Virus record (IMG/VR): IMGVR_UViG_3300031521_000097
Location: 1-51,433 of that record
Direction: 5' to 3' (one strand)
DNA length: 51,433 nt
Origin: a virus
Positions 20,001 to 25,035 of this stretch are shown here, piece by piece. The position numbers were made by a program, and so were the translations under genes. Each line of letters starts with the position of its first letter. Position 1 is the stretch's first letter. The notes under the pieces are model-generated. The model saw only the letters and a list, made by a program, of their open reading frames with translations. It ran no database searches and was not told the origin of the DNA.

Positions 20001-20213
20001 ATGAATGGAACCTTAACCTTGTTGGACCTGGAGCAATTTATTCCGGTCATGTCGTCGAGTGAGTTGTCAAAATACGAACAGGCCATTCTTGGTCTTAAAG
20101 CGGCGCTGTTCTGCATGAACCATGTTGATCGCTGGGAGAGCCTCTTGGCATCTCTGAATGCCGATATTCAAATTCGTTTTAATTCTTCAATCCGAAAATC
20201 AACAATTCAATGA
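20001..20213 (+). CDS. Hypothetical protein, 70 aa
   Basis: Likely start ATG 20001. Helical protein with LTLLDLEQFIPVMSSSELSK and YEQAILGLKAALFCMNHVD. No family is recognised. It overlaps the lipoprotein start by four bases (ATGA), suggesting co-expression in the lysogeny module. Confidence 0.65.
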   Translation: MNGTLTLLDLEQFIPVMSSSELSKYEQAILGLKAALFCMNHVDRWESLLASLNADIQIRFNSSIRKSTIQ

Positions 20214-20455
20214 AAAAATTATTTAAATCTTCAGCTATTTTACTGATCGTAGCCGTGTTTTTCAGCTCGTGTGCAACTATTTTTAATGGGTCGGCTTCAG
20301 TTTGTCAGAAGACCAAGCCTGCAGCAGGTCAGCCAGCGAGGGATGTGCGAGTTTTGCCACTTATTCTTGATTGTTTTTGTTTGCCTTTCCTGGCAGTTGA
20401 CTTTGCAACAGGCGCAATTTACGAGCCTTGCGAGCTCAATAAACCCATTAAATAA
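20210..20455 (+). CDS. Small lipoprotein of the lysogeny module, 81 aa
   Basis: A signal sequence (KKLFKSSAILLIVAVFF) ends in the lipobox FSSC, with Cys about residue 21, then ATIFNGSAS. The rest has two hydrophobic segments (LPLILDCFCLPFLAVDFATG). A small lipoprotein expressed from the prophage module suggests lysogenic conversion or superinfection exclusion at the cell surface, but this is an inference. It resembles short Bacteroidota lipoproteins of unknown function. Confidence 0.72.
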   Translation: MKKLFKSSAILLIVAVFFSSCATIFNGSASVCQKTKPAAGQPARDVRVLPLILDCFCLPFLAVDFATGAIYEPCELNKPIK

Positions 20456-20459
20456 AAAT

Positions 20460-20849
20460 ATGCAAACTCCCGAAAGTCAAATAATAATCAATCGTTTTTT
20501 TGCGGCTCTTGCTGCGCTCAAGGCGGACAAGGTAATACGTGGAAGGCAAACCTTCACCCGTCGCTATGGAATCAATCGGTGGAATCTCAACACCCTGGAG
20601 AAGAATCCGGAGTCTGATATGTTTCAGGCAGCCTGGCTGATGTTCCTGGTCAACGACTACGGTGTGTCTGCTGCATGGCTTTTGACCGGCGTTGGTGAAA
20701 TGTTTACGGCTAAAAAACGAAAGGATGAACATAAAAAGGTACAGCCAATTTCTACCCGACAAAGTGAAGGGGGAGCCAGATTCGAAGCTCCGGTATCGAA
20801 TCAAATGGAATGGTTCGATCGCGGCGTTCAGTCTGGGATATCGTGTTGA
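20460..20849 (+). CDS. Second repressor-like HTH protein, 129 aa
   Basis: Start ATG 20460. Residues about 5-85 are helical: IIINRFFAALAALKADKV, then TFTRRYGINRWNLNTLEKN as a helix-turn-helix, and YGVSAAWLLTGVGEMF, which is close to WLLTGEGEM in the CI-like protein. It is thus a paralogue, though the HTH itself has diverged. Its last 42 codons overlap the integrase in another frame (20725-20849), so its C-terminus is probably not conserved. It is a good candidate for a second regulator. Confidence 0.72.
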   Translation: MQTPESQIIINRFFAALAALKADKVIRGRQTFTRRYGINRWNLNTLEKNPESDMFQAAWLMFLVNDYGVSAAWLLTGVGEMFTAKKRKDEHKKVQPISTRQSEGGARFEAPVSNQMEWFDRGVQSGISC

Positions 20850-21999
20850 AATCGAAAAGTGGAGCCCGGAAACCCAGCGCTGTGTCACCTCGTCGTTTCA
20901 TGGAATTAAGAAGGTCCCGGCGGCGGTTGTAAACAAGGAAATCCAGCGCTTTGTTGTCTGCTGTGATAAAGTGTTCGCCTCGTTTGAAAAGGCGGACCAT
21001 GTCCCTGTTGCTGCTGAATTCCGGGACGCCTTTAACTTGGCGATTGGAAAAGATCGGCGTGTCTCTAAAAAAGCTACTCAGAAAGCGTTCTTTGATGTCT
21101 GGGACGACTTCATCTCTTCGATGGGTTCTCAGAATACCTGGTCCGAGGCCACCTATAAGAAATTTGTAAATATTAAAATGCAGCTTAAGGCTTTCGATCC
21201 TGGGTTGTCGCTCTCGACTATCTCTGATCAAACGCTGCAGTCGTTTGTTGCCTATCTGCACAGGCGCGAGCTCAGGAATACAACTATTACTAAAAACGTC
21301 GCATTTGTGCGCTGGTTCCTCCGGTGGGCATTCAACAAAAACCTATATTTTGGCAAATCTCACGAAACCTTTAAAACTCGCCTTAAGGGTGTGGATTATC
21401 AATCCCGGGATGTGACGCATTTGTCCTGGGATGAGCTCATGTCGCTTTTGGTTCTGGAGCTCCCGGAATCAAAGCAGTACCTGGCCCGTGTTCGGGATGT
21501 GTTTTGCTTTTGCTGTTTTACCGGGTTGCGCTATTCTGATGTTCAGAAGTTGTGCCGGTCCGATGTCCGCTCTGATGCCATCCTGGTGGTGACTCAAAAA
21601 ACGGCGGACGCTCTGGTGATCGATCTGAATAAATATTCCCGGGCCATCCTGGAGAAGTACGCCGGTGTTCCTTTCCCTAAAAACAGAGCCTTGCCGGTGA
21701 TCTCAAACGTGCGGATGAATATATACCTCAAAGAGCTCGGTCTGCTGGCTGGGCTTACTGAATCGCGGCGTGTGGTTTATTTTATGGCTAACACCCGGCA
21801 TGAAGATGTTCTTCCGCTCTATTCTCTTCTAACGACGCATTGCGGTCGTCGCACTTTTATTGTGAATGCTCTTTTTCTGGGAATCCCGGCGCCTGTAGTT
21901 ATGAAGTGGACCGGGCATTCAGATTACGATTCCATGAAACCGTATATTAAAATCGTGGATGTCCTCAAGGCTTCCGAAATGGCAAAATTCAACCGATGA
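20725..21999 (+). CDS. int: Tyrosine integrase
   Basis: 424 residues from ATG 20725; MNIKRYSQFLPDKVKGEP at the N-terminus is an arm-type DNA-binding domain of Bacteroidota integrases. A SAM-like core-binding region spans about residues 95-205. The catalytic domain has R269 (in GLRYSD), K292 (TQKT), H372 and R375 (THCGRRTF), H398 (TGHSDYD) and nucleophile Y407 (KPYIKI), so all active-site residues are present. It inserts the phage into the host chromosome by site-specific recombination at attP. It overlaps the HTH gene upstream by 125 bases. Arm-like repeats follow directly. Confidence 0.96.
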   Translation: MNIKRYSQFLPDKVKGEPDSKLRYRIKWNGSIAAFSLGYRVEIEKWSPETQRCVTSSFHGIKKVPAAVVNKEIQRFVVCCDKVFASFEKADHVPVAAEFRDAFNLAIGKDRRVSKKATQKAFFDVWDDFISSMGSQNTWSEATYKKFVNIKMQLKAFDPGLSLSTISDQTLQSFVAYLHRRELRNTTITKNVAFVRWFLRWAFNKNLYFGKSHETFKTRLKGVDYQSRDVTHLSWDELMSLLVLELPESKQYLARVRDVFCFCCFTGLRYSDVQKLCRSDVRSDAILVVTQKTADALVIDLNKYSRAILEKYAGVPFPKNRALPVISNVRMNIYLKELGLLAGLTESRRVVYFMANTRHEDVLPLYSLLTTHCGRRTFIVNALFLGIPAPVVMKWTGHSDYDSMKPYIKIVDVLKASEMAKFNR

Positions 22000-22385
22000 A
22001 AAAGTATAAATTATTTAGTCCCTTATCTGGTCCCCGATTTAGTCCCTCTTTTTTAAGGGGGACCAAAAAAGGGACCTTTTTGGTGATTCCACCTGCTGTT
22101 TTATGCTGTTTTGTGATAGGTTGGATTTTAAGAAAGCCAATAAAACAAGGGATTTGCTGTTTGGCGATTGTTGCTGATTTACGGGGTTAGAGAACCCGTA
22201 TCTCTTCATTTTGGGTTCATTATTAAGCTGTTGCAAAAAACAGGGACCAAATAAGGGACCTTTTCGATCAATCCACTTTCATTTTTGCCCTAAAAAACAG
22301 AAAAACCCGAGTGTTTAAATTCCCGGGCTTCGCTGGCTTTTATAAGCCCACACAACAACAACTCTGCAAATATAATTCTTATTTG
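22000..22385. other. Probable attP with three pairs of integrase arm sites
   Basis: A 386-base stretch without convincing genes directly after int. GGGACC/GGTCCC motifs come in three pairs, each pair 12 bp apart: inverted at 22029 and 22041 (the second reads AGTCCC), direct at 22059 and 22071, and direct at 22243 and 22255. The last two pairs also share flanking AAAAAAG/TTTT-type bases. This is the spacing of tandem arm-type sites around a core, here somewhere between 22080 and 22240. In that interval GAACCC/GGGTTC form an inverted repeat (22190-22216). No tRNA end is recognised. The exact crossover is unknown. Confidence 0.7.
22301..22328 (-). terminator. Weak minus-strand terminator after the spanin gene
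   Basis: CCCG (22306-22309) can pair with CGGG (22324-22327) and is followed, in the minus direction, by a T run (the A run at 22301-22305). The stem is only four to five base pairs. It lies about 60 bases after the spanin stop, the end of the late tail-lysis unit, and faces attP. Confidence 0.4.
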
Positions 22386-22910
22386 TCAAATTTTAGGTGC
22401 TATCCCTAAAATCGTTTTTATCCTGGTCCAATTCCGGTAAACCAAAAATGAACCGGCTCCTGCAATGGCGATCAAAATTATAAAAAACCAATATTTCACC
22501 GCTGGAGCTTTCGGGATCTCCTTGTTTGTTGCCTCCGCTTTTGTGGTTGCGTCGGTGCTGCTGTTATCGGTGTGAGTGCTTAGTTGGTTTCCTGCTTTGT
22601 CTGAGTCGGTCTTTACGTTTTTATTCTCCGTCTTTTTTGTGGTAGTGGTCGTCTCTTTTATGACTGGCGGCTTTCCTGTTTCCGCGACGGTTGGTTTGCT
22701 GGTGTCGTAGTCGGTTTCTTTTACGGTCGTTTCGGTCCCGGTGTCCGTTACTTCGACTTTTGTTTTGATCTCTTTGCTGTCGCTCTTGTTTGTGTCGGAG
22801 ATGGCATTCTCGATCGCGGTGATCTGTTCTGTTTTGCTCTGCTGGATTACCTTCTTTGGTGCGCAGGAAACGATCAATAAAATAATGAATCCAAAAATGT
22901 ACTTTTTCAT
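22386..22910 (-). CDS. Candidate unimolecular spanin (lipoprotein with C-terminal TM)
   Basis: 174 residues. The signal sequence (FGFIILLIVSC) ends with a lipobox Cys at residue 16, so the N-terminus should be lipid-anchored in the outer membrane. Residues 30-135 are Thr/Lys/Glu-rich with no large hydrophobics, long enough to span the periplasm. Residues 140-158 (YWFFIILIAIAGAGSFLVY) are a membrane helix with a basic tail (RNWTRIK), which fits cytoplasmic orientation. Outer lipid anchor plus inner-membrane C-terminus is the layout of a u-spanin such as phage T1 gp11, which fuses outer and inner membranes in the last lysis step. It lies right after the holin and endolysin genes. No sequence homology is claimed. 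Confidence 0.72.
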   Translation of the reverse strand: MKKYIFGFIILLIVSCAPKKVIQQSKTEQITAIENAISDTNKSDSKEIKTKVEVTDTGTETTVKETDYDTSKPTVAETGKPPVIKETTTTTKKTENKNVKTDSDKAGNQLSTHTDNSSTDATTKAEATNKEIPKAPAVKYWFFIILIAIAGAGSFLVYRNWTRIKTILGIAPKI

Positions 22911-22920
22911 TTTGATTGTT

Positions 22921-23214
22921 TTAAATTGGTTTTATGTCTGGCATCTTTGTGATGAGTGCTTCCGTCTCCTGTTTGACCTCTTCGTGTGCAATCTCTGCTT
23001 TTTTATTCGCGTTCAGGTAAACCAGTACTGGCGTTGCGATCGTGGTCCATATTATTCCGATTGCTGCAGCTTTTTCGGCGACGGTTGCACCTTCCTGGCT
23101 GATTAGGATCGACGAAAAGGCGACCGCTACTAAAATGCAAAATGAAGCGATTAGTCTGGCTGATGAATTGTTCCCGGCCAGGCTCTCAAAGAATCCGGTT
23201 TTTTCGTTGGTCAT
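22921..23214 (-). CDS. Holin-like membrane protein
   Basis: 97 residues with two hydrophobic helices: [19 protein letters not shown] (about residues 21-39) and [19 protein letters not shown] (about 51-69). A short linker and a charged C-terminus ([17 protein letters not shown]) follow. The N-terminal [11 protein letters not shown] is typical of class II-like phage holins. It lies between endolysin and spanin and overlaps the endolysin stop by 4 bases, so it is the likely pore-forming trigger of lysis. Confidence 0.83.
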
Positions 23215-23732
23215 GGCTTAAATGTGAAATCGTTTAGTCTGTTCATCCATCCTTTTATAAATCGTGCCTGGGATGGGTTGTTGGTGACGATCCCGTTTAA
23301 AAATGTTTCCCGGGCTTCGAATATATCCATGAACAGGCTGTTTTGGTTCGTGGTGTTGACCGCATAAAGGGTTTTGTGTCCAACAATCCCGTCATCGACT
23401 AATCCCATTATTCGCTGTGGAATTACAACTCCCCATTTTCCGGATCCCCAGACCCAATCGACCAGAATGTCTGCGATGGATTGGTTGTTGATCTGGTCCG
23501 CCATCCATCGGTCCCAGTAATATTTTTTAAGGACGATCGTTGCGTCCTGCGCTGTCAGTAGCTTGATGTCCTCTGTGTCGATGTCTCCGTCTCCATCTTT
23601 ATCAAATCCGCATTGTCTCCAGGTGGCCAGGGTGACGCCCTTGTTGGTTGCTCTGCCTTTGTCGGTCTTGTCATCTGTGAACCCACCTTCCCACTTTAAA
23701 ATCTTAGGCGCTAATAGTTTAATGTCAGCCAT
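23211..23732 (-). CDS. Endolysin, GH108-type N-acetylmuramidase
   Basis: 173 residues. [21 protein letters not shown] at the start holds the catalytic Glu (E15) and the usual GH108 context. An EF-hand-like loop, [12 protein letters not shown] (residues 44-55), with Asp at the calcium positions 1, 3, 5, 7, 9 and 12, is inserted between the active-site region and the rest. Residues about 110-165 resemble a peptidoglycan-binding 3 domain ([14 protein letters not shown]). No signal sequence, so release needs the holin. The ATG at 23732 lies inside the 3' end of the HNH gene (8-base overlap). Its first 23 codons duplicate, in recoded form, the fragment at 24433-24522. Confidence 0.93.
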
Positions 23733-24396
23733 TTATGTTGTTTTTTATATTGTAATGAATAATTCTATGGCAATTGGCGCATAATAAAATGCATTTCGAT
23801 AATTCGTTTAATAATTTTCCTGGCGTCTTATTAACAACGAGTGCGGCCATTGAATACTCTTTTTTTGTTGGATCGACATGGTGTAAATCATAACAACTAA
23901 AATGAAATTCTTTTTTGCATTCTCCACAACATCCACCCTTAGATTCTATAATTTCCTCCCATGCCTCTTTTCTCCTCTTCCTGCTTAAGTGGCTTTTGCA
24001 AAGGCCCAATCCCTCATGTTTGTTTTTACATCCGACAACTGTACATTTTTCTATAAATTTAATTTGAATCGGCTTTGTCATATCCATACCTGTAATGCTT
24101 CTTAAAAAATGAGCGTTACAAAAGCCATTTGTGTGATGTTTTTTATTGCATCCATCGTACGAACATTTCCTCTCTATTGTGCCTTCAATTAATTTATAGT
24201 ATAAAATATTTTTGTATCGGGTAAGTACCTTTATTGATGTGTTCTCTGGGATGTCGTCAATCAATAATATTCCTTTGTTTTTACAAATTAGTAATCGCTT
24301 ATTTTCATACCAATATATTTTATTTTCACAATCATTCGTCCTGAACACTTTTGCCAACGCAGGGACCTCTATGGTTTTATTTATTGATTTTTTCAT
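23725..24396 (-). CDS. HNH homing endonuclease inserted in the lysis operon
   Basis: 223 residues. N-terminal [20 protein letters not shown] and [20 protein letters not shown] are two similar Cys/His zinc modules. The C-terminal HNH domain is [38 protein letters not shown]: the CxxC pairs bind structural zinc, HHVD and N-L-CxxCH hold the catalytic His and metal ligands. Its stop uses the bases of the endolysin start region (AATGGCTGAC). It is more A+T-rich than its neighbours. Flanked by a 5' endolysin fragment upstream and an intact endolysin downstream, it is almost certainly a homing insertion. Confidence 0.88.
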
Positions 24397-24525: not shown

Positions 24526-25035
24526 TTATTTTTTAAGAATGCTTTTGATTTCCTCTTTTTTAATTTCGTTGACGGCTTCGGTGTTTACTTCGACTTGGTG
24601 TTTCTGTGCGACCCATTCTGATATAAATTCCTTCCCGGCTTCGTATGTCTTAATCCCTCCGATGGTGGAAAGAGCGCAAAAAACAACGAAGGCCGGCACA
24701 AACAAAACCTTCCATTCGATCATAAATTTGGCGGTCTGGAGTAATTTTTTGTAGGCCAGGATAAAACTGAGCTTTCCGAGCTGGTCCTCTATCTGTTCTA
24801 TGGTTTCGTAAAATGTTTTTTTGATTTCTTTGACGTCTGCTGGTACCGGGCAATTGCGGAGGTGGTTGCCATCTGCCTTGATGAGTTCTCCGATCTGCTT
24901 TCGGATGTCGTCGGTGTTTTTTTCGGTCCTCAAAACCTGCGCTTTTAAATCTCCAATCTGCTTGTCGAGTCCTACGTTTTGTGATGTGAATAGTTCTTTT
25001 ATTGATCCAATTAAGGCCCTGTCTTTTTCATCCAT
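24526..25035 (-). CDS. Coiled-coil protein with one membrane helix, first lysis-unit gene
   Basis: 169 residues. The N-terminal 50 residues and about 65-100 are predicted coiled coil (DKQIGDLKAQVLRTEKNTDD, KEIKKTFYETIEQIEDQLG). A membrane helix lies at about residues 109-128 (VLFVPAFVVFCALSTIGG), with a helical C-terminus rich in Lys and Glu. It could be a holin accessory, antiholin or tail-anchored envelope protein. Its own promoter and operator are 46-95 bases upstream. Confidence 0.72.
   Translation of the reverse strand: MDEKDRALIGSIKELFTSQNVGLDKQIGDLKAQVLRTEKNTDDIRKQIGELIKADGNHLRNCPVPADVKEIKKTFYETIEQIEDQLGKLSFILAYKKLLQTAKFMIEWKVLFVPAFVVFCALSTIGGIKTYEAGKEFISEWVAQKHQVEVNTEAVNEIKKEEIKSILKK

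Follow-up and report, generated by a model that had tools for sequence, protein, structure and literature searches.

A candidate unimolecular spanin in the lysis unit of a temperate Bacteroidota phage

Results and Discussion

Organisation of the lysis unit

The window analysed here is the whole of IMG/VR virus record IMGVR_UViG_3300031521_000097, a stretch of 51,433 nucleotides. Its lysis genes are transcribed in the order GH108 endolysin, holin-like gene and unimolecular spanin (u-spanin) candidate, the last gene of the unit (Table 1). The ATG of the holin-like gene overlaps the endolysin stop codon, and the u-spanin candidate begins 10 bases past the holin-like stop. Directly past the stop codon of the candidate is a hairpin with 10 bp followed by U-rich sequence, although its loop exceeds the length allowed by the pattern scan. 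The preliminary description of this DNA had placed the gene last in the lysis unit after the holin and endolysin; this order is borne out, with a weak identity for the holin (E=0.13). As the lysis genes are followed by this hairpin and by a convergent integrase, the locus is the end of a late unit in a temperate phage.

Matches to a portal of the SPP1 type and a capsid of the E type in the window indicate a tailed phage. The best relatives of the endolysin (63–68% identical) come from Bacteroidales genomes, Flavobacterium phages and IMG/VR contigs, and Fib_succ_major and Lcl_C domains are found in the neighbourhood within the window. Taken together, these point to a host from the phylum Bacteroidota, an assignment that is well supported.

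An HNH endonuclease gene (PHROG 3106; 23725-24396, minus) lies immediately upstream of the endolysin and is likely a homing element. Between the tail genes and the lysis unit, a 169-aa protein without a family match (24526-25035, minus) combines a coiled coil with a membrane segment and could be a second holin or antiholin. Moreover, an 81-aa lipoprotein with lipobox SSC21 and no Pfam match (20210-20455, plus) is encoded beside the repressor-like and integrase genes and is a possible lysogenic-conversion gene.

Table 1. Features of the lysis unit and of the u-spanin candidate, with positions in the window.
Feature	Position	Strand	Evidence
u-spanin candidate, 174 aa	22386-22910	minus	ORF list, hydropathy, ectodomain homologues
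Putative signal peptide and lipobox IVSC, codons 1-16	22863..22910	minus	pattern; mature start CAPKKVIQ
Conserved motif YDTSKPTVAETGKPPVIKE, codons 68-86	22653..22709	minus	alignment; AlphaFold2
Predicted C-terminal membrane helix, codons 141-158	22437..22490	minus	hydropathy; AlphaFold2 helix 138-168
Holin-like protein, 97 aa, two hydrophobic segments (by eye)	22921..23214	minus	PHROG 1350 holin E=0.13, weak
Endolysin, Glyco_hydro_108 and PG_binding_3	23211..23732	minus	Pfam E=3.4e-20 and 5.2e-14
Terminator-like hairpin past the spanin stop codon	22296..22336	minus	z=-2.91 for 22280-22350
Tyrosine integrase, convergent with the lysis unit	20692..21999	plus	Phage_int_SAM_5 E=1e-8; Phage_integrase E=5e-5, below cut-off

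The candidate protein

Stops occur throughout the plus strand of the gene, and the coding strand is the minus strand, the preliminary description having named neither. The protein opens with MKKYIFGFIILLIVSC, the signal ending at lipobox Cys16, continues with APKKVIQ and finishes in AVKYWFFIILIAIAGAGSFLVYRNWTRIKTILGIAPKI. Lys2-Lys3, a hydrophobic core and the lipobox I-V-S-C16 make up the signal, as judged by pattern. The periplasmic stretch would run over residues ~17-138, and its composition over 122 residues is 26 Thr, 19 Lys, 20 Asp+Glu and 0 Cys. The most hydrophobic 17-residue segment begins at residue 141 (mean Kyte-Doolittle 2.42) and is followed by the basic tail YRNWTRIKTILGIAPKI; a hydropathy scan gave no hydrophobic segment beyond the signal and this C-terminal helix. 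With lipobox and membrane helix assigned by pattern and hydropathy, these features agree with the lipobox at Cys16, the Thr/Lys/Glu-rich stretch of ~120 residues and the helix at 140-158 with a basic tail that had been claimed before. No second spanin ORF, embedded or adjacent, lies on the coding strand at 22300-23250, which therefore holds in this region no i-/o-spanin ORF pair of the kind that defines a two-component (Rz/Rz1 type) spanin.

An AlphaFold2 model computed from the family alignment has a mean pLDDT of 59. The C-terminal helix is predicted at pLDDT ~90, and strands at 51-66, 86-101 and 113-119 are placed at pLDDT ~40-65. With low confidence, the model suggests a beta-hairpin of 51-66 and 86-101 that carries the conserved motif at its turn.

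A homologue family sharing a YDTxKP/TGK motif

As sole query, the candidate protein matched nothing but low-complexity noise in IMG/VR, GenBank phages, Pfam, PHROGs or NCBIfam, and a PDB sequence search gave nothing useful. Of eight Bacteroidota genomes searched, a single Dysgonomonas genome yielded two matches (E=4e-8 and 1e-7); the first follows a GH108 endolysin, the second a short amidase-like protein. The survey loci (see below) already contained a third homologue, from a Tannerella MAG. An HMM made from the ectodomains of these three homologues, with the window excluded, recovered the window protein at E=2.6e-6 among 5,025 ORFs, and the isolated window ectodomain scored 24.6 bits versus at most 3.0 for its 50 shuffles.

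The homologues have a core in common, YDT[SDE]KP followed by 4-6 residues and TGK[PH]P. A search with this core gave 43 members (36 non-redundant), from 30/101 genomes of the family to which the Dysgonomonas host belongs and from 13 IMG/VR loci; with a family member as query, none was found in GenBank phages. Since the 13 IMG/VR loci were picked by motif alone, topology and position are independent tests for them. A single terminal membrane helix is present in nearly all members, and a recognisable lipobox at a plausible start in 29/36, the remainder being mostly fragments or doubtful starts. Thus most homologues keep both anchors, a check that the preliminary description had proposed.

Homologue ectodomains vary, some resembling by eye a heptad coiled coil around the motif, and a common collapse mechanism is therefore not evident. 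Iteration of a full-length HMM drew in nearly all u-spanins, which we did not accept as proof of one superfamily, since the matches are driven by lipobox and helix. With the ectodomain alone, five sequences remain, namely the window, the three homologues and, weakly, the protein of locus L049. A wider DTxKP-[DT]GK motif across u-spanins, noticed post hoc, is suggestive. In the portions read of L183 and L185, the best genome-level relatives as judged by the tail protein, neither an endolysin match nor a convincing u-spanin turned up, and the two therefore offer no comparison for this slot.

Linkage to peptidoglycan hydrolases

The majority (22/26) of the neighbouring ORFs scanned beside homologues match a peptidoglycan hydrolase. 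These are of the kinds GH108 (L193, L224, L231), Amidase_2 (L195, L196, L199, L230, L233), Amidase_3 (L202), Glucosaminidase (L198, L200, L227), GH19-like (L203, L205, L206 and, below cut-off, L207, L209, L216), PF11860 muramidase (L204, L221), Peptidase_M15_3 (L228) and, below cut-off, CHAP (L226). As family members accompany at least seven kinds of hydrolase that are unrelated to one another, its position tracks endolysin function, that is wall digestion, and not one enzyme. This is the expectation for a lysis partner rather than for a random neighbour.

Topology at the spanin slot across endolysin loci

The survey was anchored on the endolysin, and the spanin was not used: its 182 loci collapsed into 111 endolysin clusters at 90% identity, and the 96 with at least 1.5 kb downstream form the survey set. 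The detector asked for a charged start and an uncharged hydrophobic core ahead of a lipobox, with one near-C-terminal hydrophobic segment and none between. In its strict form it found, in 52/96 loci, a same-strand u-spanin-like ORF whose start lies no more than 1.5 kb downstream of the endolysin. It accepted 54/491 same-strand ORFs at 0-3.5 kb downstream, versus 2/907 elsewhere on the endolysin strand and 2/1,284 antisense (Fisher p=3e-23 and 7e-29, respectively). The relaxed detector found 57/96 loci, a lower bound, as reading the misses by eye gave more such proteins (e.g. L055, L063, L047). In about 40% of the loci surveyed, such an ORF is missing from the vicinity, in some cases owing to contig ends, gene order or the strict detector. 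As a positive control, T1 gp11 was the one ORF accepted in three T1 stretches scanned, whilst none was accepted among 312 gene-like ORFs of three host genomes. The same topology at this gene position, which the preliminary description had suggested looking for, is thus enriched downstream of endolysins, at 58/485 same-strand ORFs versus 4/1,984 elsewhere with the relaxed detector.

Periplasmic Cys is absent from the window protein and occurs in 2/29 family members. All 58 u-spanins of Kongari et al. (2018, PMC6139136) are without it, unlike the Bacteroidota u-spanin-like proteins of the survey (loci L002-L182), where 18/58 have it. A Cys-free periplasmic part is not a general rule in Bacteroidota.

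Other proteins were seen at this slot. In Bacteroides, Phocaeicola and Parabacteroides phages, cultured gut phages without a u-spanin (L018, L019 and L020), the place right after the GH108 endolysin is taken by a protein matching DUF6549 (L018:4509-5078) or by look-alikes (L019, L020), with an N-terminal helix, a coiled coil, a beta domain and no lipobox; these are candidate outer-membrane disruption proteins. DUF6808 (PF20647) proteins occupy the spanin slot or its vicinity, following various kinds of endolysin-like gene (L076:4843-5397, L080:4646-5173, L088:540-1100, L256:1042-1743, L257:1237-1767, L258:1285-1749). They have a single membrane helix at the N-terminus, then a periplasmic stretch rich in beta structure and a beta segment at the C-terminus, and mostly end in F/W like outer-membrane proteins. 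A low-confidence model (pLDDT 59) gives a helix and a C-terminal strand pair. They are possibly single-protein spanins of inverted topology, with the inner-membrane helix first and the outer-membrane strands last.

Lipoprotein sorting signal

Many lipoproteins of Bacteroidota reach the cell surface by an acidic export signal just past the Cys, which in Capnocytophaga is K-(D/E)2 or Q-A-(D/E)2 (PMC5080379). The mature start of the window protein has no acidic residue at +2 to +6 and so lacks the mark of a surface lipoprotein. An acid at +2 to +5 occurs in 0/30 family members (window included) and 6/56 survey proteins versus 10/21 host lipoproteins, the latter a small sample (p=3e-5 for the family and 9e-4 for the survey). 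K/R at +2 to +6 is found in 30/30 family members, 56/56 survey proteins and 12/21 host lipoproteins. A spanin has to remain inside the cell. Basic residues past the Cys and no acidic signal fit a lipoprotein kept in the periplasm, and the basic residues may themselves be a keep-inside signal.

Interpretation and alternatives

Topology and gene position are seen in the sequence, and from them we infer function: the gene product is very probably a u-spanin, a single-protein outer-membrane tether of a temperate Bacteroidota phage. At the level of prediction, topology, slot enrichment, the presence of both anchors in most homologues, their linkage to many kinds of hydrolase and the missing surface-export signal support this reading, as first put forward in the preliminary description. 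The protein would be made late with the holin and endolysin and then exported. Lipidation at Cys16 would place it in the inner leaflet of the outer membrane, the C-terminal helix would remain in the inner membrane, and one molecule would span the periplasm through the peptidoglycan. In an intact wall the tethers would be caged. With the inner membrane opened by the holin and the peptidoglycan digested by the GH108 endolysin, they would cluster, the beta-hairpin/Thr-Lys-rich middle would collapse and draw the two membranes together, and these would fuse or tear to release the phage. Collapse of the middle part and membrane fusion are the published u-spanin model, itself a proposal even for T1 gp11 (PMC6139136).

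O-spanins are likewise lipoproteins of lysis units, and two-component partners can hide in another frame (PMC6139136). The candidate could thus be an o-spanin or other envelope lipoprotein whose C-terminal stretch is no true inner-membrane anchor and whose i-spanin partner went unrecognised. We regard this as improbable: both the terminal helix and the basic end persist in almost every homologue, and on the coding strand neither a lipoprotein ORF nor an N-anchored partner ORF lies within or beside the gene. The 169-aa coiled-coil protein has a membrane segment but sits upstream of the endolysin. Conversion genes are common near integrases, and with the integrase and another lipoprotein gene close by, the product might be a superinfection-exclusion or lysogenic-conversion lipoprotein that stands beside lysis genes by chance. 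However, its gene is on the late strand so close to the holin stop, homologues follow many endolysin types with tail genes upstream in their loci, and conversion lipoproteins need no inner-membrane anchor, which makes this very improbable.

We give hardly any credence to a virion lipoprotein or tail-associated envelope protein for entry, despite homologues often lying between tail genes. Virion MS/MS of the cultured Cellulophaga phage phi18:1 labels gp58-61 as structural, but not the holin, the amidase or the lipoprotein gp65 in the corresponding slot; gp65 is here only an analogue, as its ectodomain homology to the window family is not significant. It is also scarcely believable that the candidate, membrane-anchored and adjoining the holin-like gene, is an antiholin-like regulator of holin timing with its lipidated end as a periplasmic brake. 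Timing control needs neither lipidation nor a missing surface-export signal, and there are family members that adjoin the endolysin in loci with a different holin.

For the favoured u-spanin, it is conceivable, if rather unlikely, that the YDTxKP/TGK hairpin is the functional core of a Bacteroidota spanin class with its own trigger and that the post-Cys basic residues are a conserved keep-inside signal. The hairpin might, for example, bind peptidoglycan or a Bacteroidota outer-membrane partner and let go when the wall is cut, in contrast with a plain collapsing tether like T1 gp11.

Comparison with known spanins

Kongari et al. (2018, PMC6139136) describe 58 u-spanins in 13 families, with a family threshold of 40% similarity over 40% of the periplasmic domain, and list Bacteroides phage B124-14 and Croceibacter phages P2559S/Y as spanin-less. 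Unimolecular spanins have since been annotated in Cellulophaga phages Ingeline, which has an integrase, and Nekkels (Bartlau et al., 2021, PMC8776804), and spanins in Porphyromonas gingivalis phages (2023, PMC10367356). According to a 2025 survey, u-spanins are the only spanins that Bacteroidetes phages use, in agreement with the present analysis, and temperate viruses are without them (PMC12596118). The latter statement does not hold for the integrase-bearing phage of the window or for the homologues in bacterial genomes. Therefore, the preliminary claim that Bacteroidota phages have no established spanin stands as far as experiment goes, the literature searches made having found no experimental spanin test in Bacteroidota, but not for predictions, which are published (PMC8776804, PMC10367356, PMC12596118). 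The candidate is thus not the first of its kind. Its sequence family appears to be undescribed, with the window as founding sequence.

Bacteroidota hosts dominate the gut, and the searches made found no experiment on how their phages breach the outer membrane. The locus and its homologues offer a defined family with a motif open to mutagenesis; Dysgonomonas is one of its hosts, and cultured Cellulophaga phages provide an analogue. Moreover, the lipobox, post-Cys basic residues, YDTxKP-TGK and terminal helix provide an annotation handle where Pfam and PHROGs have no matching family.

The spanins of Ingeline and Nekkels are predictions of the same type and phylum as the candidate, likened to it by description alone. 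The 'spanin' XAW31835.1 of a P. gingivalis phage (PP754928) resembles it in its place directly after a GH108-related endolysin and in having a lipobox, a middle part rich in Lys/Glu, a hydrophobic stretch at the C-terminus and a basic tail. It differs in its ectodomain, which has a TEIEFY / IKSIRQT pattern and falls outside the YDTxKP family. The sole Foldseek match in viral models below E=0.001 was 'Lipoprotein, Cellulophaga phage phi17:1' (143 aa), with low TM-scores (0.26), and we treat it as a pointer, not proof. By length it corresponds to gp65 (KC821617), annotated as a hypothetical protein (lipoprotein in UniProt). Like the candidate, gp65 has a lipobox and a C-terminal helix and is the last gene after holin and amidase, and this best, only significant structural neighbour carries VDTSKP and then DGK (VDTSKP..VDGK), whereas its ectodomain homology is not significant.

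The prototype T1 gp11 is shorter (133 aa versus 174 aa), is without the YDTxKP/TGK motif and works with a pinholin and SAR endolysin, whereas the phage of the candidate has a soluble GH108 endolysin. There is no detectable sequence relation between the two, a profile comparison aligning 9 columns at the lipobox only (probability 2.6%). Nevertheless, T1 gp11 is, like the candidate, a single protein with an N-terminal lipobox, no periplasmic Cys and a C-terminal helix with a basic tail, encoded by the last gene of its lysis cassette.
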